From: Desulfobacterales bacterium
Lineage (GTDB): Bacteria > Desulfobacterota > Desulfobacteria > Desulfobacterales > Desulfobacteraceae
Direction: 5' to 3'
NCBI GenBank assembly: GCA_022361395.1
Contig: JAKSAX010000076.1
Span: forward strand, 1 to 64,000
DNA: 64,000 nucleotides
Below the pieces are notes generated by a model. It worked only from the letters and a program-made list of their open reading frames with translations. It was not told where the DNA came from and searched no databases. A program made the translations under genes and the position numbers. Of the stretch, positions 3,325 through 23,248 are shown piece after piece; within the stretch, counting starts at the first letter, position 1; each line of letters begins with the position of its first letter.

Positions 3325-5153
3325 AATTTGCATCGCTAAAGGCAACTGCCAGGTATCTTGAAAAGCAAGGGGAGCTTGTGGTTATAGACCACGAGGTGGA
3401 CCCTTATCTTGAAATTGCTGAAATTACCCGCCGGGTCCACGAAGCCCGGGGACCGGCTTTATTATTCACCCGGGTTAAAAATGCCGGTTTCCCGGCGCTT
3501 TCAAACCTGTTCGGAACCTGGGAACGGACCCTGAAAATATTCGAACCCCAGTTGGACTATGTTAAAGCACTTGTCGATTTGAGATCTGATCCGGCACTGG
3601 CGGTGCGGTCGCCGGCTCTCGGGTTAAAGGCGGCCAAAGCACTGGTCCATGCACTGCCTGTACAGACACCTGTCTCCATGGGGCCACACCTTCAAACCGC
3701 CATAGGCCGCCTGCCCTTAATTCAATGCTGGCCTGAGGACGGCGGTGCGTTTGTACTCCTGCCCCAGGTATTTTCCAGGGAGCCGGGCCATGGTTCGATG
3801 CTCCGCTCCAACCTTGGCATGTACAGGGTCCAGCTCACCGGGAATGATTATGATCCCGGCAGGGAAGTAGGGCTTCACTACCAGATTCACAGGGGAATCG
3901 CCGTCCATCACAAGCGGGCGCTTGAGCTGGACCGGCCCCTGAAAGTATCCATCTTCATTGGGGGGCCGCCGGCCCATACCCTGGCCGCGGTCATGCCCCT
4001 GCCTGAGAATGTGCCTGAGGTAGCCTTTGCCGGCGCCTTGGCCGGAAGGAACTTCAGGTATTGCGACAGAAACGGGTTTATTCTCTCAAATGATGCGGAT
4101 TTTTGTATCACAGGGTATATCGTTCCAAACCGGACCAAGCCGGAAGGACCTTTTGGCGATCACCTGGGGTATTATTCCCTGGCCCACGGGTTTCCCTATC
4201 TCAAGGTGGTCTCGGTATGGCACAGGCCCGGGGCCATTTTCCCCTTTACGGTTGTGGGCCGTCCCCCTGCCGAAGACTCGAATTTCGGCCGCCTGATTCA
4301 CGAGATGACCCGGTCTGCCATCACAGATACCCTGCCGGGTGTCACAGCAGTAAACGCGGTTGATGATGCCGGCGTCCATCCCCTGCTTCTGGCCAAGGCC
4401 CACGAGCGGTATGTGCCTTATGAGGACCGCAGGCCAAGGGAACTGCATACCCATGCCAATGCCATTCTGGGAACCGGGCAGCTCTCCCTTGCAAAATACC
4501 TGTGCATCTGTGCCCATGAGGACAATCCCGGACTTGATGTGAACGATGAAAAAGCCTTTTTTACCCACCTGCTGGAACGGATGGATTTTTCAAGGGATCT
4601 TCATTTTATCACCCGCACAACAATCGATACCCTGGATTATTCCGGAACCGGTCTGAACAGCGGTTCCAAGGTTGTTATGGCAGCTGCGGGACCTAAATTG
4701 AGACAGCTGTCAACAGCTCTGCCCCCTGACTTTTCCCTGCCCGGAGGATTTCACAATCCAGTTCTGGCCGCACCGGGAATGGTGGCAGTGGAAGGGCCTG
4801 AATTCACGGATTATGCTGCGGCCCGGACCCAGATAGACCGCCTGAAAAGAGAATGGGAAAATATTCCCCCCCTTGACGGTTTACCCCTTGTCGTCATTGT
4901 GGATGACGCCGCCTTTACCGGAAAAACCTTTGCCAATTTTCTATGGGTGACTTTTTTACGCTCCAACCCCTCCCATGATATTTACGGCGTCGGTGAGACC
5001 CAGGTTCACAAGCATTGGGGATGCAGGGGGCCGATGATCATAGATGCCCGGATAAAGCCATTTCATGCAAGCCCCCTGGCACCGGACCCTGATGTTGCTG
5101 CCAGGGTTCAGGAGATGGCCAGGGCAGGGGGACCGTTATTCGGCCTTATTTAA
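3321..5153 (+). CDS. UbiD-family decarboxylase
   Basis: GREVGLHYQIHRGIAVHH, EGPFGDHLGYYS, and overall ~610-aa UbiD-like architecture; ATGA overlap with upstream gene. Confidence 0.88.
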   Translation: MKFASLKATARYLEKQGELVVIDHEVDPYLEIAEITRRVHEARGPALLFTRVKNAGFPALSNLFGTWERTLKIFEPQLDYVKALVDLRSDPALAVRSPALGLKAAKALVHALPVQTPVSMGPHLQTAIGRLPLIQCWPEDGGAFVLLPQVFSREPGHGSMLRSNLGMYRVQLTGNDYDPGREVGLHYQIHRGIAVHHKRALELDRPLKVSIFIGGPPAHTLAAVMPLPENVPEVAFAGALAGRNFRYCDRNGFILSNDADFCITGYIVPNRTKPEGPFGDHLGYYSLAHGFPYLKVVSVWHRPGAIFPFTVVGRPPAEDSNFGRLIHEMTRSAITDTLPGVTAVNAVDDAGVHPLLLAKAHERYVPYEDRRPRELHTHANAILGTGQLSLAKYLCICAHEDNPGLDVNDEKAFFTHLLERMDFSRDLHFITRTTIDTLDYSGTGLNSGSKVVMAAAGPKLRQLSTALPPDFSLPGGFHNPVLAAPGMVAVEGPEFTDYAAARTQIDRLKREWENIPPLDGLPLVVIVDDAAFTGKTFANFLWVTFLRSNPSHDIYGVGETQVHKHWGCRGPMIIDARIKPFHASPLAPDPDVAARVQEMARAGGPLFGLI

Positions 5154-11660: not shown

Positions 11661-12548
11661 CTACCCCTGTGCAAGTTTTTTTAGCCTGTTCAGGTTCACC
11701 TGATCCATGGGTGTTCCATTATCATCCTTTGGGGTTTCAAGTATTTTAGGTATGGAGTGGAGTCTTTTATCCTGCATGATGGCACTGAACCCGGAGTCGC
11801 CGATCTGGCCTTTACCAATGTGCTGGTGGCGGTCCTTTTTACTTCCGAGACCTGGTTTGGAATCGTTAAGGTGGATCAGCTTCAATCTGGAAAGACCAAT
11901 GTGTTCATTGAATGCAAGAAGGGTTTCATCAAGTGCCTTCAGGCTTCTCAGATCATAGCCACCGGCAAAAATATGGCTGGTATCCATGCAGACACCAACG
12001 GCTTCCGGCCGGTCAAGGCTGTTGATAAGGGTCCCGATTTCTTCAAACCGGCTGCCGATGGAAGTACCTGTACCGGCAGTTGTTTCTATGAGCAGTTCCG
12101 GAAACAGGCCCCGGTCTATGGCAAGAACCCGGTTGATACTTTTCCGGGCTGTGTCAAGTCCCTTTTCCATTCCCTCCCCAAGGTGGGCTCCAGGATGGAG
12201 GACAACGCCGTCCAGTCCCAGGAGACCGGATCTCTCCATCTCGCTTGCCAGGGAATTCCGGGATTTTTCCAGTTTGTCACCGTCATTTGAAGCAATATTG
12301 ATCAGATAGGTGCAATGGGAGAATACCCATGAAATACCAGTCTCTTTTCTGGCGGCTTTAAAAGCACTGATCCGGGTCTGGTTTAACTCGGGTTCTTTCC
12401 AGGTTCTTGCATTCTTGGTAAAAATCTGGACTGCATCACAGTTGAGGTCGCGGGCTTTGAATAAAGCATTCTCAAGCCCGCCGGCAACTGAAAAATGGGC
12501 GCCCAAAGGGTGTGGTAAAGACATCTCAGGTAACTCCGGTAAATTCAA
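11661..12548 (-). CDS. nfo: deoxyribonuclease IV (AP endonuclease)
   Basis: LGAHFSVAGGLENA, LHPGAHLGEG, ETTAGTGTSIGSRFEEI, CMDTSHIFAGGYD, HLNDSKPGLGSKKDRHQHIGKGQIG. Confidence 0.95.
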   Translation of the reverse strand: MNLPELPEMSLPHPLGAHFSVAGGLENALFKARDLNCDAVQIFTKNARTWKEPELNQTRISAFKAARKETGISWVFSHCTYLINIASNDGDKLEKSRNSLASEMERSGLLGLDGVVLHPGAHLGEGMEKGLDTARKSINRVLAIDRGLFPELLIETTAGTGTSIGSRFEEIGTLINSLDRPEAVGVCMDTSHIFAGGYDLRSLKALDETLLAFNEHIGLSRLKLIHLNDSKPGLGSKKDRHQHIGKGQIGDSGFSAIMQDKRLHSIPKILETPKDDNGTPMDQVNLNRLKKLAQG

Positions 12549-14418
12549 TACTCAGTTGATGCTGAAGTTTTTCAATCAATTTAAAACTCTCCTTGAGCAT
12601 GATCTGGTCAAGGCTTGACAGGTTGGCGGGATTAATAAAATTATCAGGCTGTTCCCCTTCGTCCATTATAGTGGTGATCTGGCGTTTGAATCTTAATCCC
12701 ATAAGGAAATTATATGACTGAATAATGTTGGTATACTCCCTGGCGGTAAGTGCATGCCGGGTGTACAGCCTGAACAGGCGGGTCAGGGTGTTGGTTTGGG
12801 CAATTCCGTTTTTCAGGGCATAAATCCGTGAAAAATCGATAATCGGCAGCATGGCCAGCTTAATATCCAGGGCTCCTTTGTGATCTCCTTTAGTTTCCAC
12901 CATAAATTTACCGAACCGCCCTATGGGGGGCTTAAAATAAATTGCATTTTCACTCATATTGCGCAGGAAGCCCGGCCACCTGCTTATGGAAGTCAACAGG
13001 TGGTTTTTCAGCTCTGTGGCCAGGGACTGATCGCCATAGGTCCCTCTGAAGTCGAAAAAAATACTGGAGTACAGCAGATCCTCGGGTGATGCCGCCCGGA
13101 TCCATTTGCTGAACCGGGTTTTCCAGACATTCATAGGCTGGCACCAATCCGGGTTCCGGGCCATATTGTTTCCCTCACAGAACCGGTATCCGGCCCTGTC
13201 AAGCCGCCGGCAGATTCCCCGGGCCAGGGTGTCAAAGTATTGTTTGGCCATGTCTGCCTGCTCCGGGTCTTCCGTCCCCTCAAAGAGGATGGCGTTGTCC
13301 TGATCCGAAATCAGGGTCTGCTCCCCCCGGCCCTCGGATCCCATGGTCAGGAAGGCAAACCTGCAGGGAGGTGGGCCTGCGTCGGCAATGGAAAAATCCA
13401 TGACTTTATGGATAATGGCATCGGAAAATGTGGTGATCAACTGTGTGATATAATCTGCATTGACACCGTTACTGATGGGTTCCAGCAGCATTTTCTCAAG
13501 CCGGTCATGAATCCCGTCAATGTCCTCCATTTTCCGGGCTGATTTTACAGCTTTAATCAGTAAAAACGTAGACCGTGTCTGGGCCTCAATCAAATCCTTT
13601 TCACTGATAATACCTGAGACCTCACCGGATTTCCCGGTAACGGCAAGGTGGCGTTTGTCCTCATGTATCATCTTTAAAAAGGCCTCAAAGATCTGTGCCC
13701 CGGCGGGGATGGAGATCAAGGGGGAAGATAGGATTTCAGACACAGGAGAGAGAGGGGACCTGCCTTCTGAAACAACCCGGTTTTTTAAGTCCGCATCCGT
13801 TACGATTCCCTTAATCTGCCTGGTCTTTGACTTGACCAGAATGGCACTTGTTTTCTGCCGGTTCATTTTCAGGGCTGCGTCCCGCACAGGATCATCTTCA
13901 GAACAGGTGGCAATATTGGGCCTGAATATAGCCGAAACCGGCCGGTTAAAAAAGGGAAGGTTAAGGGATTTATCCTGAATCCGCCGGCCAAGTACACCCA
14001 TAAAGACTTTATTGGCCATGCATCGCCCGACTTCAAGGGCAAAGTAGTCGAAAAATTCGGAATTGCGGAGGCAGAGATCTTCAATGATTGAGGCATCAAC
14101 TGCAATGGCCCGGGTATCCTCAAGGGCTGCCACTGTATGGATGGCCATGTGATCGTTGAACAATACAGACAACCCGCCAAAGACCGCACCCGGGCTTAGC
14201 TGCCCCTGAATCAGCCGGTCACTGCCTTTTATATAGTAGAATTCAAGCCGGCCTTTTGTCAGGATATAAACCTGCTTTACCCTGGATATTTCCTGGGTAA
14301 AGAGCACATCTCCCTTTGACAGGTTCTTATAGGAGAAAGCGGTGTATAGATCTTTTTCCTGGGATTTGGACAGGAAGGAAAAAGGCTTGCCCGGAGCAGG
14401 TTTTGGATCAGGATGCAC
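12526..14418 (-). CDS. cyclic-nucleotide-binding/CBS domain/DUF294 putative nucleotidyltransferase
   Basis: N-terminal cNMP-binding-like region, two CBS repeats, FAFLTMGSEGRGEQTLISDQDNAILF nucleotidyltransferase motif. Confidence 0.92.
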   Translation of the reverse strand: MHPDPKPAPGKPFSFLSKSQEKDLYTAFSYKNLSKGDVLFTQEISRVKQVYILTKGRLEFYYIKGSDRLIQGQLSPGAVFGGLSVLFNDHMAIHTVAALEDTRAIAVDASIIEDLCLRNSEFFDYFALEVGRCMANKVFMGVLGRRIQDKSLNLPFFNRPVSAIFRPNIATCSEDDPVRDAALKMNRQKTSAILVKSKTRQIKGIVTDADLKNRVVSEGRSPLSPVSEILSSPLISIPAGAQIFEAFLKMIHEDKRHLAVTGKSGEVSGIISEKDLIEAQTRSTFLLIKAVKSARKMEDIDGIHDRLEKMLLEPISNGVNADYITQLITTFSDAIIHKVMDFSIADAGPPPCRFAFLTMGSEGRGEQTLISDQDNAILFEGTEDPEQADMAKQYFDTLARGICRRLDRAGYRFCEGNNMARNPDWCQPMNVWKTRFSKWIRAASPEDLLYSSIFFDFRGTYGDQSLATELKNHLLTSISRWPGFLRNMSENAIYFKPPIGRFGKFMVETKGDHKGALDIKLAMLPIIDFSRIYALKNGIAQTNTLTRLFRLYTRHALTAREYTNIIQSYNFLMGLRFKRQITTIMDEGEQPDNFINPANLSSLDQIMLKESFKLIEKLQHQLSIEFTGVT

Positions 14419-15022
14419 TGGATGATGCCTTTTCCCGGGAGGGTGCCAGCAGGTGAACGGCTATTTCCGGATAATGGATGTCATCCAGCCCGAAAAGAGG
14501 TGCAATGAGAAATCCGGGAAAGACCTTGGTTCTCGTATTAAAATACCGCGCCTCTTTGTTGTATCTTTTTCCCATAATAAATACCGCAAGCTCCAGTTCT
14601 TCCAGTCTCTTTTCCAGGGCGTCATAACTCTCGGGGCGCCGGATGCCGTCCCTGTGAATTTCCTTTACAAACCCGTCAACGGATTGGTTCAGATTGATCT
14701 GTGAGGCTTCGAACGCGGCAATCAATTCAGGATCAAAAACAGCGTCAGCCTGTTGGATACGGTTAAGAACAAGAGCGGTTGATGCTGCGGCATCTCTCAG
14801 TTCCCCTGACCTGGATCCGGCTGATTCAGGAGCCGCCAGTTCGGAAAAGTCGGATACAACACCCAATTGCTCCCGGCATTGGGCCACCAGATGCTCTTTT
14901 ACCGCCTGAACACGGTTCTGGGATCTTAACAGACTGCTGTATCCTCCAAAGACAACACAAAAAATAACAATGCCGAATACCAGGGAGCAGATACCTGCAA
15001 AGGTAAACCAGGGGGTTTTCAT
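14408..15022 (-). CDS. LemA-like membrane protein (divergent)
   Basis: single N-terminal TM; YNKEARYFNTRTKVFPGFLIAPLFGLDD resembles the LemA C-terminal signature. Confidence 0.6.
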   Translation of the reverse strand: MKTPWFTFAGICSLVFGIVIFCVVFGGYSSLLRSQNRVQAVKEHLVAQCREQLGVVSDFSELAAPESAGSRSGELRDAAASTALVLNRIQQADAVFDPELIAAFEASQINLNQSVDGFVKEIHRDGIRRPESYDALEKRLEELELAVFIMGKRYNKEARYFNTRTKVFPGFLIAPLFGLDDIHYPEIAVHLLAPSREKASSSAS

Positions 15023-15111
15023 GGGCAGATCCTCCGAAAAAAGATTTATTCACATCTATCATTGACCATGAGGGTTGATCAATAGCTTAAATGCAGCTGA
15101 CCAACTTTAGA

Positions 15112-17187
15112 TCAATATTTCAAACGGGCATAGTAGGTTTTTTTTGATGCATTCACCGCATCTTTTAAAGTCAGTATTCCGTTACTGTTTAATATGGGTA
15201 ATAATTTCAGAAATATTTCAGCCGTGGTTATGGCATCGCCAAGAGCCGTGTGCCTGCCGAGAATATTGACCCCGAGTCTGCGGGCTATATTTTCTAAATC
15301 ATGTTGCCGGTGGACCGGATGGAGAACTGCAGATAAAAGCAGGGTATCCAGAACCGGATTTTCAAACCTGATACGGGTGGACGCTTCCTTAACCTTGATC
15401 ATCTTCATGTCAAAGGCAAGATTATGACCTAAAAGCACAGTTTTGGCGGTGTATGATTTGAATTTCGGCAGGATGGTTTCAATGGGGGCTTTTTCTTCGA
15501 CCATTTCATAGCTGATACCATGTATTTTATAAGATTCAAGAGGGATATCCCGCCCGGGGTTGATGAGTTCTTCAAAATAATCCTGGTAGACCACCCGGCT
15601 GTTGACTATTCTTACCGCACCAATGGATATTATCTCATCGCCCCCGTCAGGATTTAAACCGGTGGTTTCCGTATCAAATACCGTATAGGTTAACTTTTGA
15701 AGGGGAACATCCAGTAAATTATCAGAGGGATCCAGGTTGAAAAGGTTGAAATCATAATATTCCGGCCTGGAGTCGGAAATCACTGGCGCACCGGTCTTTA
15801 AAACCCCCTCAGGCAGAACTCCGGCCTGGGTGGTTATATGGATGCCTGTGTACCTGTTCTTGTCACTTGACAGGGGGATAAGTCTTGCATTGTTGAATTT
15901 GAGTACATATCCGAGGCTGGGCAATCTTTCCGGTTTTGACCTGATGATTAAATCAATCTGGTCTCCGGTGCAAAACGGGCCGTCCCAGGACAGATCAAAT
16001 CCGATTATTTTTTCATTTTTCGATATGCAAAGATCAAACTCGTTCAATCCGGTAAATTCCGATAGTTTTGTAAATATAAAGAGAAATACCTGGGTCAGGG
16101 AGTAAGTATCTGCAAGAATTCTTGTGCCGGGGCAGGGGTTAAATATATTCACGCGGATATTTCTGCCGGCCCCGGTTTTTTTTTGAATCATGGGTAAAAA
16201 AGACTCAAGGGGCAGTGTGGTTAAGGGAAGGCTGGAAAAAGTGGTTTCCTTGATGGTTGACGCCATTTTGTCAAAGGAATCCAATATGATTTCAGGCCGG
16301 CTGGATACAGGGCCGTAAATCAGGGCCTTGAATTGCTTTAAACTCTTATCCACGGTCATATATTTACTTATATTTTCTGACACATCCTGAACTGCCAGGA
16401 TAAAGCCCGTGATCTGGTTTTCAGGGTCGAGAACGGGTATTGTTTCGGCGCTGATGAGAACACCGGAAGCGATGGGGGTAATAAAGAAGGAGCCCACCGG
16501 CATATGCGGACTGTTCATCTGTTCTAAAATCTCATCCATGGCATGGGCGATCAGCGCCTTGTCAATTAGATGAAAAATTGACCGGCCAAGGCCGAGGAAG
16601 AGTTCAGGTCTTTCTGAATTGTGATCGGGGCTGAAGAGTTTTTTTGCCAGGGAGTTGAAAAGGATAATCCGCCCGTTTTTATTGCAGACCACAATACCCT
16701 GGGGCAGTTCTCCCATAATTGCGGCTAAAAGATTTCTCTCTTTTTCCGTTTCTTTCCTTGCCGCCAGAATCTGTTCGGTGATTGTCTTGTTCAGATTCTC
16801 AAACATCTCTGCGAAATCATTTATGATCCCGGCCATCCGGAGGATATCCCGGCTACCCTTTGCATGGATTCTGTGGGACGGGTTTGATGTATATATCATC
16901 CCGGCTTCGGCAGACATCCGTTTCAATGGGAGGATATACCTGTGATAGGTGATATCAAACACAGCCCACAGGGCGCCGAAAACGATAAATACCAGGCTGA
17001 GAAGGGTATAGATGTTCTCCTGGCAGATCTGACCCAGGGTCTGTTTCTGGCCGGCAGAAAGGCTGAACCAGATATAAAACAGGAGCAAACTCCCAAGAAG
17101 GATGATACAGGTCAGGCTGATAAGAACGAATTTCCAGAATCTGTTTGTTTGCGTCATAGGATGAATAGTCGTGTCTGTAAAAGACAA
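15112..17187 (-). CDS. membrane PAS-sensor-like protein fused to DnaQ-like 3'-5' exonuclease
   Basis: two TM segments, HAMP/PAS-like region, then VFDTETTGLNPDGGDEIISIGAVRI...GHNLAFDMKMI...HTALGDAITTAEIF (DEDDh exonuclease motifs). Confidence 0.88.
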   Translation of the reverse strand: MSFTDTTIHPMTQTNRFWKFVLISLTCIILLGSLLLFYIWFSLSAGQKQTLGQICQENIYTLLSLVFIVFGALWAVFDITYHRYILPLKRMSAEAGMIYTSNPSHRIHAKGSRDILRMAGIINDFAEMFENLNKTITEQILAARKETEKERNLLAAIMGELPQGIVVCNKNGRIILFNSLAKKLFSPDHNSERPELFLGLGRSIFHLIDKALIAHAMDEILEQMNSPHMPVGSFFITPIASGVLISAETIPVLDPENQITGFILAVQDVSENISKYMTVDKSLKQFKALIYGPVSSRPEIILDSFDKMASTIKETTFSSLPLTTLPLESFLPMIQKKTGAGRNIRVNIFNPCPGTRILADTYSLTQVFLFIFTKLSEFTGLNEFDLCISKNEKIIGFDLSWDGPFCTGDQIDLIIRSKPERLPSLGYVLKFNNARLIPLSSDKNRYTGIHITTQAGVLPEGVLKTGAPVISDSRPEYYDFNLFNLDPSDNLLDVPLQKLTYTVFDTETTGLNPDGGDEIISIGAVRIVNSRVVYQDYFEELINPGRDIPLESYKIHGISYEMVEEKAPIETILPKFKSYTAKTVLLGHNLAFDMKMIKVKEASTRIRFENPVLDTLLLSAVLHPVHRQHDLENIARRLGVNILGRHTALGDAITTAEIFLKLLPILNSNGILTLKDAVNASKKTYYARLKY

Positions 17188-17189
17188 AG

Positions 17190-17223
17190 AAGAATTCCGG
17201 GGCCTGGCGGTCCCGGAATTCTT
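17190..17223 (-). terminator. Rho-independent-like terminator between symporter/microORF and sensor-exonuclease
   Basis: perfect 12-bp inverted repeat AAGAATTCCGGG-N10-CCCGGAATTCTT flanked by T-rich sequence on both strands. Confidence 0.75.
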
Positions 17224-17254
17224 CTTTTTTACCGTTTAATTTCCTTTTTTCTGA

Positions 17255-17341
17255 TTATCCCCACCATCCCCAGCCAAAAGAGGCCACAAAGACGACGCAG
17301 AAGATGAGGGTTGCAATGAGATATTTATCTTCAAGTGCCAT
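17255..17341 (-). CDS. 28-aa hydrophobic microprotein MALEDKYLIATLIFCVVFVASFGWGWWG (not in ORF track)
   Basis: ATG with AAGGAG-type RBS (ATATAAAGGAGAATATATTATGG), 24 nt after the symporter stop, followed by the strong hairpin at 17190..17223; single predicted TM helix. Confidence 0.65.
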   Translation of the reverse strand: MALEDKYLIATLIFCVVFVASFGWGWWG

Positions 17342-17365
17342 AATATATTCTCCTTTATATACGGA

Positions 17366-19147
17366 TCAGTCTGCTTCCTTGGTAACTTCAAGGGTTTCCT
17401 CGTCAGCCCTGCGGATCTGTTCATCAGATGTTGTCGACATCTCCGCTTTAAAACAGAGAGCCCACATCATGACAATACCGATGATCCACCATACGATCTG
17501 CCATGCCCAGATGGGCGGGAATCCGCAGAAGGTGAAGGCTGAGTTACCGATGAGAACACCGGGTCCGAGCGCCAGCAAATACCACGCAGGAACCATAATT
17601 TTCATCCGGGCACGCCACTTTTTACCGTTTTCACTGGGACCGTCAACGGAATCCAGCCACTCTCTGACCTCTTTCTGGCGGGCAATGGTCTCTTCGCTGT
17701 CTTTGATTCCAAGACCGCGGCAGAGATAGGCCACTGCAAGCCCTGTGAATATACCCCAGCCGGCCGTATGGATGGACAGAGGATATTTATAAATATAGTA
17801 GGTCACAAAGCAGGCGGCAATGGCGGCCAGAAGCCCGAGTACAACCCCAACGCTGGGGTATCTGAATCCCCAGTGAACCCCGAGCAGGCAAAGGTACATA
17901 ATGGTACCGAATGCTGTGGCAAACCCGCCGATCATAACAATGGCGTCAGATGAGGTCAGGGATACCACAACTGCGGCAACGGCAAGGATAGTGGCAAAAA
18001 TACGGTTGGTCCAGATCTGTTCCGAATGGGAGCCGCCCTGTTTTCTGACATACCGCCACCATACATCCCTCTGGATGATGGTGCCGCCTGTACCGATATA
18101 GGGTGCGGCCGTGGAGTGGATGGCTGCAATGGCGCCTAAAAATACCAGACCCAGAACCGGTCCGGGCAGGAATTTTGTCATCAGCATGGGAACCACGTCA
18201 CCATCAACCTTGGGTGCCAGTTCTCCGGCCATCATCAGTATTCTTGCACCGATACCCTGGAAAGCGGTGAAGAAGAAAAGGGCCAGACCGACTACAAAAG
18301 TGGACATGAAAACCTGCTGCCAGGCCAGGGGCTTGGGAGAGGAAAGACCGAAGTTCCACAGGGTAAAGGCGGGGGAAGACTGGATTCCCATGAGGGCAAA
18401 CATGTAGGTCAGAATCATGACCGCTGTCCAGCCGCCCGAACCAAGACCAAAGTGAATCAGTCCGGGAACCTGCATGTATTTTGTCTCAAGACCGCTCATG
18501 GATGATACGAATCCCGACCATCCGCCGAACAGCGGAGAGGTGATGGTGTAGAAGCCAAGGAGTACGATACCGCCGACCAGAAGACAGAACTGGAGTACAC
18601 CGACCCAGGTACTGGCTTTGAGCCCCCCGGTCACAACGTAGAACCAGACGATAAAGGCCATGAATATCAGGCCCGCGGTCTGGGGAACACCTGCCACCCA
18701 ATAGAACAGCTTGGCAGCTGCAATCAGCTGGAGACCTGAGTAAAAGATGGAGTAGAGGAAGGCTGCGATTACGGTGAGCCACCGTACTGCCTCGTTGTTG
18801 TAGTAGTAGGCGAACATATCACCGGGGGTGATAAATCCGTACCGTTTACCCAGGAGCCAGTTCCTCTTGGCAAAAAATGCCCCTGTAATGGGGATGGTTA
18901 ATACGTAAAAAGAGGCAAAGGCATAAACCAGTCCTGCTTTCCAGATCAAACCTGGATGACCGATAAACGTCCAGCCGGAAAAGGAAGCGGCAGTTGCCGC
19001 CATCAAGAACGCAATAAAAGGAATGGAGCGACCGGCAATGGCATAGCCGGAAGCCTTTTTCTCAGTGAAGAACCCTCGAAGTCCCCACCAAAAACAGTAA
19101 ATTATATATAACCCTAATAGGATATATACCCACATTTTTGGATCCAT
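17366..19147 (-). CDS. sodium:solute symporter (SSS) family, acetate/monocarboxylate-like
   Basis: many TM segments; ASGYAIAGRSIPFIAFLMAATAASFSGWTFIGHPG; located downstream of acyl-CoA synthetase genes. Confidence 0.88.
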   Translation of the reverse strand: MDPKMWVYILLGLYIIYCFWWGLRGFFTEKKASGYAIAGRSIPFIAFLMAATAASFSGWTFIGHPGLIWKAGLVYAFASFYVLTIPITGAFFAKRNWLLGKRYGFITPGDMFAYYYNNEAVRWLTVIAAFLYSIFYSGLQLIAAAKLFYWVAGVPQTAGLIFMAFIVWFYVVTGGLKASTWVGVLQFCLLVGGIVLLGFYTITSPLFGGWSGFVSSMSGLETKYMQVPGLIHFGLGSGGWTAVMILTYMFALMGIQSSPAFTLWNFGLSSPKPLAWQQVFMSTFVVGLALFFFTAFQGIGARILMMAGELAPKVDGDVVPMLMTKFLPGPVLGLVFLGAIAAIHSTAAPYIGTGGTIIQRDVWWRYVRKQGGSHSEQIWTNRIFATILAVAAVVVSLTSSDAIVMIGGFATAFGTIMYLCLLGVHWGFRYPSVGVVLGLLAAIAACFVTYYIYKYPLSIHTAGWGIFTGLAVAYLCRGLGIKDSEETIARQKEVREWLDSVDGPSENGKKWRARMKIMVPAWYLLALGPGVLIGNSAFTFCGFPPIWAWQIVWWIIGIVMMWALCFKAEMSTTSDEQIRRADEETLEVTKEAD

Positions 19148-19268: not shown

Positions 19269-21170
19269 TCATGCGTTTTTTCCATACCCGATCTTTCCTA
19301 AGGAGTCCTCGATTTCATCCAGGATGGTATAGTCGTCAATGGTTGCAGGTACTTTATATTCCTTTTTATCTGCGATGGACCGCATGGTCCCTCTCAATAT
19401 CTTGCCTGATCTTGTTTTTGGTAAACGTTTGACCACGGTGGCGGTTTTAAAGGCGGCGACCGGGCCGATTTTTTCACGGACCAGGGCAATCACCTCTTTA
19501 ACCACCTCATCTTCATCTCTGTCCACACCGGCATTGAGCACCATCATCCCTAAGGGGATCTGTCCTTTGAGCTGGTCTTCAACACCCATAACAGCACATT
19601 CTGCCACATCCGGGTGTCCAGCTATTGCCTCTTCCATGGCGCCGGTTGACAGTCTGTGCCCGGCAACGTTGATAATATCATCGGTACGGGCCATGACATA
19701 AACGTACCCCTCCTCGTCAATGTACCCTGCATCTGATGTTTCATAGTATCCGGGGAAGGCGGAGAGGTAAGCCTCTTTATACCGCTGGTCATTCTGCCAC
19801 AGGGTGGGCAGGGTGCCTGGCGGCAGGGGCAGCTTGACCACGATTGCACCGATCTCCCCCTTGGGAACGGGTTTGCCGTCACCGTCCAGTACATCCATGT
19901 TCCATCCGGGTGCAGCCTTAGTGGGAGAGCCCGGTTTTACCGGGAATTGTTCAATACCCATACAATTGGCTGCAATGGCCCAACCGGTTTCCGTCTGCCA
20001 CCAATGGTCGATTACCGGTACTTTGAGGCTGTTTTCAGCCCATGACAGGGTATCCGGATCTGTCCGTTCCCCGGCAAGGAACAGATAGTTGAATCCGGAC
20101 AAATCAAAATCCTTCATCATCTGGGCCGTGGGATCTTCCCGCTTAATTGCCCTGAAAGCTGTGGGAGCGGTAAACAGGGTTTTTACCTTATGTTCGGAAA
20201 TGATCCGCCAGAATACTGATGCATCAGGTGTTCCAACGGGTTTTCCTTCAAAAACAATTGTTGTACAGCCTTTGAGCAGCGGCCCATATACAATATAGGA
20301 GTGGCCTACCACCCAGCCGATATCCGAGGCCGCCCAGTAGACGTCTCCGGTATCGACTCCGTAAATGGCGCTCATGGTCCACTTCAGGGCAACCATGTGT
20401 CCGCCGTTATCCCTGACCACCCCCTTGGGCTGGCCCGTGGTTCCCGAGGTATACAGGATATAGAGCGGATCTGTGGCTTCAACGGGAACGCAATCGTGGG
20501 GACTTGCCTGGTACATGACATCTGCCCAGTCAAAGTCACGCCCGTCCTGCATTTCGGCCTGGGCCTGGGGGCGCTGGAGGATGATACATGCATCCGGTTT
20601 GGCTTCAGACAGGTCTATGGCCTCATCCAAAAGGGGTTTGTATTCAATCACCCGGGTCACCTCAATGCCGCAGGAAGCCGAGACAATGACCTTGGGTTTT
20701 GCATCGTTGATCCGGGTGGCCAGCTCATTTGCAGCAAACCCGCCGAACACAACGGAATGCACCGCACCAAGACGGGCACAGGCCAGCATGGCAAAGGTGG
20801 CCTCGGGGATCATGGGCATATAGATAATAACCCGGTCCCCTTTTTTAACCCCTTTGGCGGCAAGGGCGCCTGCAAACAATGAAACCTGTTCTTTCAGGTC
20901 ATTATAGGTGAATTTCTTTATTGTATCTGTAACCGGACTGTCGTAAATAATCGCGGTCTGATCTCCTCTGCCGTTTTCCACATGAAGGTCCACCGCATTG
21001 TAGCAGGTGTTTGTCCGGCCACCGGTGAACCAGCGGTAAAACGGTTTGTTGGAATCATCCAATACCTTGTCCCACTTTTTATACCAGAAACAGTCTTCAG
21101 CAACAGGGCCCCAGAATCCGTCAGGATCATTAATCGATTTGTCATAGGCTTCGGCATATGAATTGGACAT
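19269..21170 (-). CDS. prpE: propionyl/acetyl-CoA synthetase-type AMP-forming acyl-CoA ligase (PrpE-like)
   Basis: YILYTSGTTGQPKGVVRDNGGH; VIDHWWQTETGWAIAANCMG; KTRSGKILRGTMR; N-terminal YAEAYDKSINDPDGFWG as in PrpE/ACSS3. Confidence 0.85.
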   Translation of the reverse strand: MSNSYAEAYDKSINDPDGFWGPVAEDCFWYKKWDKVLDDSNKPFYRWFTGGRTNTCYNAVDLHVENGRGDQTAIIYDSPVTDTIKKFTYNDLKEQVSLFAGALAAKGVKKGDRVIIYMPMIPEATFAMLACARLGAVHSVVFGGFAANELATRINDAKPKVIVSASCGIEVTRVIEYKPLLDEAIDLSEAKPDACIILQRPQAQAEMQDGRDFDWADVMYQASPHDCVPVEATDPLYILYTSGTTGQPKGVVRDNGGHMVALKWTMSAIYGVDTGDVYWAASDIGWVVGHSYIVYGPLLKGCTTIVFEGKPVGTPDASVFWRIISEHKVKTLFTAPTAFRAIKREDPTAQMMKDFDLSGFNYLFLAGERTDPDTLSWAENSLKVPVIDHWWQTETGWAIAANCMGIEQFPVKPGSPTKAAPGWNMDVLDGDGKPVPKGEIGAIVVKLPLPPGTLPTLWQNDQRYKEAYLSAFPGYYETSDAGYIDEEGYVYVMARTDDIINVAGHRLSTGAMEEAIAGHPDVAECAVMGVEDQLKGQIPLGMMVLNAGVDRDEDEVVKEVIALVREKIGPVAAFKTATVVKRLPKTRSGKILRGTMRSIADKKEYKVPATIDDYTILDEIEDSLGKIGYGKNA

Positions 21171-21217: not shown

Positions 21218-23248
21218 CTACTTCTGAACCATGTTTCTTATTTCCTCGACCACTTCAGGGTTGGCAAGGGTCATGACATTACCCACATCACCCCTGTTTG
21301 AAATGGCTCCCAGAACACGTCTCATGATTTTACCCGAACGTGTTTTGGGCATATCAGGCACCAGCCACACCTTTCTTGGTTTGGCTATTTTACCGATCTG
21401 TTCGCATACGGCGGCGGAAATTTTCTGGGCCAGCTCTTCAGTGGGCTCAATACCGGTTTTAAGCGCAATATAAAGATCGGGTTCCTTACCTTTGATATCA
21501 TGAGCCACAGGCACCACTGCTGCTTCCGCAACCTCTTCCACAACCAGGGATGCGGATTCTATCTCCTTGGTTCCCAGGCGGTGGCCGGAGACGTTGATTA
21601 CATCGTCTATGCGGCCCAGGATCCTGAAATATCCGTCGTCGGCCATCATGGCGGCATCACCGGCCAGGTAGGGCCAGTCCCTCCAGTCCTTACTCTCCGG
21701 ATTCCTGCAGATGTCGGCAAAATAGGTATCAACAAAGCGCTGGCGGTCTCCCCAAACGGTCTGGAACTGTCCGGGCCACGGGTTGCGGATGCAGATATTG
21801 CCTGCGATACCGGTTTCGGTGATCTCATTTCCGTCATCATCCAGGATAAAGGGGTGGATACCAGGCACACCGGGGCCGGCACTTCCGGGTTTCATGGGTT
21901 TAAGTCCCGGCACTGTGGAACAGAGGAATCCGCCGGTTTCCGTCTGCCACCAGGTATCAACGATGATGGCCTCACCTTTGCCTACGGCAGCCTCATACCA
22001 TTTCCAGACTTCGGGTTCGATGGGCTCACCCACGGTGGTCATATGTTTGAAATGATAGTTATACTTGGCAGGTTCCTCCGGTCCCAGTTTTCTCAGGGCG
22101 CGAATGGCTGTGGGTGCGGTGTGGAAGATGTTTACATCAAGCTCCTGGGCAATCCGCCAGGACCGTCCGGCATCCGGGTAGGTGGGCACCCCCTCGTAAA
22201 TAACTGTGGAGGCGCAGAGGGCAAGGGGGCCGTAAACAATGAAGGAATGACCGGTTATCCAGCCGATATCCGCCATACACCAGTAGACATCTTCAGGATG
22301 GATGTCCTGGATATACTTGGACATGGCAGTTACATAGGAGAGGTAACCGCCGGTGCCGTGCTGGCACCCTTTAGGCTTGCCGGTTGTGCCGCTGGTATAC
22401 ATTAGAAACAAAGGGTCCTCTGACAGCATCTGCTCTGGCTCTATCCGTGCGCCGTAATGGTTCTTCAGATTATCGTTTACAAAGATGTCGCGATTGTCAA
22501 CCATCGGGGTGTCTGAAGAGTATTTTCCGGGGTACCGCTGCCATACCAGTACCGTATCAACCACCTGGCCCTGTTCGGCGGAGAGTTTGACAGCTTCATC
22601 CGCATTGACTTTATGGTTTAAAAGATTACCGGCACGGTAGTAAGCATCCATGGTAATCAATACCCTGGAGTTTGAATCAACGATGCGGTCCGCACAGGCG
22701 GAAGCTGAAAAACCGCCGAATACAACCGAGTGAATAACCCCGAGCCTTGCACAGGCCAGCATGGTAATGGGCAGTTCAGCAGACATGGGCATATGGATGG
22801 TAACCCGGTCTCCCCGTTTAAGTTTGGCGTCATTTTTCAACAGGGAGGCAAATTCATTCACCCTTACGTAAAGTTCCTGGTAGGTGATGTGGTCCACCCG
22901 TTCCTCTTCAAGTTCGGGCACAAAATGGATGGCTGTTTTGTTTTTATTGTCCTTGAGGTGTCGGTCTATGCAATTGTAGGATGCGTTGAGTTTTCCGCCT
23001 TTAAACCACTTATAGCAGGGGGCATCGCTTGTATCCAGCACTTCATCCCAATATTTGTACCAGGTGAGCAGTTCGGCATATTCAGTAAAGTAATCAGGGA
23101 AGTTGTCCAGACTGAACCTGTCGAAAATGTCAGGATCATTCAGGTTTGCCTGGCCGATAAACTTTGAGGAAGGGTAATAGTAATCCTCTTCTTTCCAATG
23201 GACTGCGATTTGGGCTTCCGTAGTTTCGACAACTTCTTTTTTGCTCAT
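21218..23248 (-). CDS. acs: acetyl-CoA synthetase (AMP-forming)
   Basis: LFLMYTSGTTGKPKGCQHGTGGY; IIVDTWWQTETGGF; KTRSGKIMRRVLGAI. Confidence 0.92.
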   Translation of the reverse strand: MSKKEVVETTEAQIAVHWKEEDYYYPSSKFIGQANLNDPDIFDRFSLDNFPDYFTEYAELLTWYKYWDEVLDTSDAPCYKWFKGGKLNASYNCIDRHLKDNKNKTAIHFVPELEEERVDHITYQELYVRVNEFASLLKNDAKLKRGDRVTIHMPMSAELPITMLACARLGVIHSVVFGGFSASACADRIVDSNSRVLITMDAYYRAGNLLNHKVNADEAVKLSAEQGQVVDTVLVWQRYPGKYSSDTPMVDNRDIFVNDNLKNHYGARIEPEQMLSEDPLFLMYTSGTTGKPKGCQHGTGGYLSYVTAMSKYIQDIHPEDVYWCMADIGWITGHSFIVYGPLALCASTVIYEGVPTYPDAGRSWRIAQELDVNIFHTAPTAIRALRKLGPEEPAKYNYHFKHMTTVGEPIEPEVWKWYEAAVGKGEAIIVDTWWQTETGGFLCSTVPGLKPMKPGSAGPGVPGIHPFILDDDGNEITETGIAGNICIRNPWPGQFQTVWGDRQRFVDTYFADICRNPESKDWRDWPYLAGDAAMMADDGYFRILGRIDDVINVSGHRLGTKEIESASLVVEEVAEAAVVPVAHDIKGKEPDLYIALKTGIEPTEELAQKISAAVCEQIGKIAKPRKVWLVPDMPKTRSGKIMRRVLGAISNRGDVGNVMTLANPEVVEEIRNMVQK

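Follow-up and report, generated by a model that had tools for sequence, protein, structure and literature searches.

The nearest described concept to the gene considered here is the model NF045580, the "symporter small accessory protein" (symport_access, 33 positions), which likewise stands for a small single-helix membrane protein encoded beside an SSS-family symporter. A likeness on the level of functional analogy only is offered by MAP17 (PDZK1IP1), the single-helix auxiliary subunit of the human SSS-fold transporters SGLT2 and SGLT1. In SGLT2, the MAP17 helix packs on the peripheral TM13; robust activity or surface expression of SGLT2 depends on MAP17, for which a stabilising effect on the fixed scaffold of the transporter has been proposed (PMC10803289). 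Further small hydrophobic proteins, i.e., KdpF, AcrZ, MgtS, and MntS, are known to bind, assemble, or tune larger transporters (PMC11539335). The product of yjcH, a gene of the acs-yjcH-actP operon, is described as a hypothetical membrane protein (PMC6498577). YjcH (DUF485) resembles the present case in that a small membrane protein is encoded alongside acs and an SSS carboxylate symporter. The TIGR03647/DUF4212 small subunit pairs with the TIGR03648 (VC_2705-type) SSS symporter, and the DUF4212 and YjcH partners are larger proteins with more than one helix. MetS serves the MetPS importer of the NSS family. The description of MetS as a very small protein co-encoded with a LeuT-fold symporter, in the methionine/alanine importer MetPS, goes back to Trotschel 2008, as cited in PMC5105988. 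Literature searches found neither a described small subunit of the symporter type treated below nor anything under the name of NF045580.

The window analysed here, i.e., the whole stretch of 64,000 nucleotides of contig JAKSAX010000076.1 from a Desulfobacterales bacterium (GCA_022361395.1), carries on its minus strand the genes acs, prpE-like, SSS, and a microORF in this order, separated by spacers of 47, 121, and 24 nt, and thereby confirms the gene order of the acs-prpE-symporter-microORF unit of the original prediction. The unit consists of an acetyl-CoA synthetase Acs (21218–23248, above the cut-off of TIGR02188), a PrpE-like propionyl/acetyl-CoA synthetase (19269–21170, best match NF007815 with an E-value of 1e-226 but below the cut-off of this model), an SSS/SSF-family symporter of 593 aa (17366–19147), and the microORF (17255–17341), whose translation MALEDKYLIATLIFCVVFVASFGWGWWG* is a 28-aa single-helix membrane microprotein. 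The symporter stop is a TGA (17366–17368), the ATG of the microORF follows exactly 24 nt on, and the ribosome-binding site AAAGGAG is located in between (17350–17356); the earlier description of a minus-strand 28-codon ORF with this site, start, and distance was exact in the sequence. Downstream of the microORF, a perfect hairpin with an A-rich left and a T-rich right flank (17186–17227, minus strand) is likely the terminator of the unit. It had been announced with arms of 12 bp, and while the hairpin itself is present, its arms measure 16 bp. Strong hairpins 3′ of the microORF were also found in most of the relatives folded, and a promoter scan gave no excess over shuffles. After the symporter unit come genes for a PAS-exonuclease, a LemA-like protein, and a cNMP/CBS/DUF294 protein (12526–17187, minus strand). 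The listed ORF of 691 aa at 15112–17187 (minus strand), in whose product a PAS domain is fused to a DnaQ-like exonuclease, begins at a TTG within the hairpin; its true start is probably an ATG near 17157, because homologues of the product align from residue 10–11. The exonuclease gene is found near the microORF in many relatives too, which hints at a linked signalling module.

The assignment of the partner, a sodium-type carboxylate symporter, is based on its SSF domain (PF00474, 107.1 bits against a cut-off of 22.8, E-value 1.2e-30) and on sequence matches as well as fold matches of its structural model in the PDB, which comprise SiaT, vSGLT, SGLT1/2, and SMCT1; the fold is also close to the human SGLT1-MAP17 and SGLT2-MAP17 structures, the latter among the best matches. 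With 57.5 bits it stays far below the cut-off of TIGR03648 (VC_2705-type, 320.75), and likewise far below that of ActP. Because the acs and prpE-like genes adjoin, its substrate is probably acetate or propionate.

Relatives of the microORF were sought in 40 related genomes, a sample of the phylum, a sample of the order, and a set of named genomes. The order sample of 292 Desulfobacterales genomes contained 76 with a relative. Overall, relatives were detected in Desulfobacterales, including Desulfospira, Desulfobacula, Desulfotignum, Desulfatitalea, and others, plus some other Desulfobacterota, among them Desulfofustis, a record labelled Desulfobulbaceae, and the more diverged relatives L051 and L053 in another family of this phylum. 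Cultured carriers include Desulfospira joergensenii DSM 10085, which has two copies, Desulfofustis glycolicus DSM 9705, and Desulfatitalea alkaliphila. Identity to the window peptide ranges from 96% in the nearest relatives to 29–57% in distant ones. The intact copies read, among them each of 47 further copies that were parsed, all encode 28 residues; an ATG start and a GGAG- or AGGAG-type ribosome-binding site are nearly always present. Across 70 unique microprotein sequences, M1, G23, G25, and G28 are invariant, E4, D5, F14, and F22 are nearly so, and W or F occupies position 27 in all but two sequences; the C-terminal signature G-x-G-x-[W/F]-G is fixed. Between the window and its closest relative L002, five of 18 synonymous sites and one of 63 non-synonymous sites differ (Fisher p 0.0017); against L080, the corresponding numbers are 10 of 18 and two of 63 (p 1e-6). 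The pooled pN/pS over all usable pairs is 0.37, with many of the pairs saturated. Relative to the two nearest relatives, the ORF is 92–93% identical and the spacers 34–53%.

On these sequence comparisons, the microORF is a real coding gene under purifying selection. Open reading frames of 28 codons are common by chance, and a single one might be accidental; the alternatives to a gene are a chance ORF and a conserved non-coding sequence. A chance ORF is ruled out because sequence, length, start, ribosome-binding site, and position are conserved across dozens of genomes, and the substitution pattern, in which amino acids are kept and synonymous sites diverge while length, start, and ribosome-binding site stay fixed across families, refutes the non-coding reading as well; together these retain a negligible probability. 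The original prediction had named a lack of conservation at the locus in relatives, or a non-coding substitution pattern, as findings that would speak against it; what was found is conservation at the same locus in relatives and a substitution pattern of the coding type. Matches in Lysobacter and Anaerolineae (L124, L126) were discarded as chance matches inside other ORFs with no symporter.

Searches against Pfam and NCBIfam gave no match for the window peptide, and no relative reached a curated cut-off. NF045580, for which 34 of the 395 Desulfobacterota genomes have a match above the cut-off, had no match at its curated cut-off of 35 bits for the window peptide or any of 41 relatives, and no match at E ≤ 0.001 in the genome of the window. 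An hhalign comparison of the two families aligned a single column at a probability of 2%, the profiles being so short that this is no strong negative. The NF045580 members read are about 50–60 aa long with a charged tail and are mostly encoded upstream of an SSS symporter of roughly 470 aa from another subfamily, whereas the window microprotein has 28 aa and its gene is located 3′ of its SSS gene; membership in NF045580 is rejected on sequence, gene order, and symporter type. The models DUF4212, TIGR03647, and YjcH did not match the window peptide, and DUF4212 and TIGR03647 did not match its family either. Matches of a few relatives to NGO_0222 (14–19 bits against 38) and to CbdX (E-value 0.05) are sub-threshold; they were rejected and probably reflect the composition of a single helix. 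MetS belongs to another transporter family, KdpF, AcrZ, MgtS, and MntS serve other transporters, and none of them matches the microprotein in sequence (Pfam/NCBIfam for the latter four). MAP17 differs in being longer and in having flexible extracellular and intracellular regions, and no relevant match that would indicate homology to it emerged when all PDB chains were searched with a profile. The microORF family is new and unannotated, although small transporter partners of this kind are known.

Linkage was surveyed in the 292 Desulfobacterales genomes at all symporter loci with at least 60% identity to the window symporter (n = 89). An HMM match to the microORF was located directly 3′ and on the same strand in 79 of these loci, the median gap to the symporter match being 39 nt, counted from where that match ends. 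One further symporter (G476:C16) is followed by a divergent copy, MKIEDRYLLVVVGFIIGWITLMGMGVLG, recognised by eye, and seven loci end at a contig edge, so that the microORF is directly 3′ in 80 of 82 assessable loci. The two true exceptions are G622:C103, whose genome has a second SSS-microORF pair with one stop in the symporter frame of that pair, and G446:C929, whose genome holds a detached microORF copy elsewhere, possibly a natural case of action in trans. The microORF was absent beside all eight symporter paralogues at 40–43% identity in the 292 genomes (three of them read by eye) and beside two more symporters of 43% identity from other Desulfobacterota families.

The arrangement of the neighbouring genes is far less constant. 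In five loci (L083, L086, L087, L088, L100), the pair is situated apart from the acs, prpE-like, and exonuclease genes, and such paralogous stand-alone pairs occur in Desulfospira, Desulfobacula, and relatives. Five others (L099, L103, L107, L109, L123) have the order acs-SSS-microORF-prpE, and a prpE-like gene is also located 3′ of the microORF in L117. The designation "last cistron" is therefore true for the window but not for these relatives. In L108, a tandem duplication has produced the order SSS-microORF-SSS-microORF. The position of prpE relative to the pair varies while the SSS-microORF arrangement is constant: the microORF follows the symporter, not the enzymes. Type I toxins were also considered as an identity for the peptide, and the fixed linkage to the symporter argues against it.

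Six detached microORF copies were recorded (G466:C144, G446:C605, G500:C228, G517:C1, G481:C116, G540:C67), two of which are apparently located at sites of symporter loss or breakage. On G517:C1 (L191, about 4078–4161, minus-strand reading), a solitary microORF without D5 comes after acs, and no symporter gene separates the two, an apparent case of a lost symporter whose microORF was left behind. The copy on G540:C67 comes after an apparent symporter remnant. On G446:C605 (L104/L187, 481–567), a microORF with the consensus sequence occurs on its own next to what appears to be a locus for a B12-type ABC transporter.

As a translated membrane protein of the operon, the microORF product could act elsewhere than on the symporter, for example on the membrane, on the CoA ligases, or on the downstream PAS-exonuclease and DUF294 signalling genes. 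The consensus copies detached from any symporter (G500:C228, G466:C144, G446:C605) and the exonuclease gene near the microORF in many genomes are what such a role would lead one to expect. Yet the pairing with the symporter is kept where acs, prpE-like, or exonuclease genes are absent or reordered (L083, L086–L088, L100, L106, L117), the tandem duplication in L108 preserves it, and in G446 the detached copy together with a symporter that has no adjacent copy fits action in trans on that symporter; we therefore consider a role elsewhere unlikely. The peptide could also be a leader or attenuator, whose translation ahead of the hairpin would control read-through into the downstream gene, with the Trp codons or the nascent chain as the sensor. 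A short ORF with three Trp codons and a strong hairpin within about 30 nt would suit this arrangement, as would the position of the microORF ahead of prpE in some relatives. What the tail keeps, however, is glycine and aromatic character and not Trp codons, W24 being replaced by M, V, A, I, or L and W27 by F in relatives; moreover, the downstream gene varies (exonuclease, prpE-like, response regulator, or unrelated) while the upstream gene is constant, conservation of the E-D pair and of the entire helix is at the protein level, and Rfam gave no match. With the Trp codons replaced, the downstream gene variable, and the upstream gene constant, a leader peptide is a rather improbable explanation.

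A C-terminal segment of the symporter, appended by read-through of its stop codon, would be conceivable in the window, where the microORF is in the symporter frame and no further stop occurs if TGA is read as W. In most relatives, however, the spacer length is not divisible by three, any of TAA, TAG, and TGA serves to end the symporter, and every microORF comes with a ribosome-binding site and a start codon of its own. The variation in frame and stop codon refutes the fusion as a natural product, to which hardly any probability can be assigned.

We therefore favour the reading that the 28-aa single-pass inner-membrane protein is a dedicated accessory subunit of the upstream SSS-family carboxylate symporter, which we consider probable. 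Its near-exclusive pairing, fixed length, and conserved key residues point to a probable missing small subunit of this symporter, and the fact that it accompanies a single symporter subfamily, tandem and relocated copies included, is strong support for a function connected with the symporter. The accessory-subunit reading of the original prediction is partly supported; the subunit role itself is one we infer, the helix being only weakly placed in the models described below. The two symporters that lack an adjacent copy and the six detached copies count against a dedicated subunit. Genetic linkage alone would fit a subunit and a regulator of the same operon alike. In the arrangement we envisage, the E-D pair would remain on the cytoplasmic side, a single helix of some 18 residues would span the bilayer, and the glycine/aromatic end would reach the outer interface. 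By analogy with MAP17 and KdpF, the helix may pack on the periphery of the symporter, and the microprotein may be needed for folding, stability, or tuning of the symporter, as MAP17 is for SGLT2 and KdpF for Kdp. The effect could be on assembly or stability, or could be activation or inhibition.

For structure prediction, the symporter and the microORF, which are in frame here, were joined to one chain by reading TGA as W; this fusion served as a modelling device, and read-through is not proposed. AlphaFold runs on the fusion with eight paired rows gave pLDDT values of 51/53/34 for the microprotein blocks, and runs with 20 paired rows gave 54/69/61, with a helix at microprotein residues 3–23. 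For the helix (fusion residues 611–630), the confidence was thus 53/34 with the smaller and 69/61 with the larger number of paired rows, an increase that is suggestive in favour of a subunit, although a deeper alignment could also produce it. In both fusion runs, the helix was never placed with high confidence on the symporter. The helix showed no significant bias of its conservation to one side (permutation p 0.75 with 41 sequences and 0.11 with 70 sequences).

The microORF is a gene below the usual annotation length limits and is probably part of the acetate/propionate uptake machinery of sulfate reducers, a central step in the carbon flow of anoxic sediments. A more far-reaching proposal, which we put forward tentatively as possible, is that it represents a new family of obligate subunits, 28 residues long, that serve an SSS-fold symporter for acetate/propionate; these would be among the smallest known transporter subunits and a bacterial functional counterpart of MAP17 that evolved independently of NF045580. 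If true, the single-helix partners recruited by SSS symporters would differ from lineage to lineage. Since the microproteins are short enough to synthesise, carry an invariant signature that can be mutated, and come with natural experiments in the form of tandem copies, detached copies, and relics after symporter loss, the question why SSS symporters keep small helical partners becomes directly testable in bacteria.

Two minor observations were made at further symporter loci. A symporter fragment 92% identical to the window symporter (L176, G014:C1; residues 18–148) is not accompanied by a microORF and is apparently a broken remnant. The 40–42% paralogues in L194 (G570:C227) and L196 (G611:C1506) are followed instead by an unannotated ORF of roughly 80–100 aa that apparently contains two hydrophobic segments, matches nothing in Pfam, and is possibly a different small partner.
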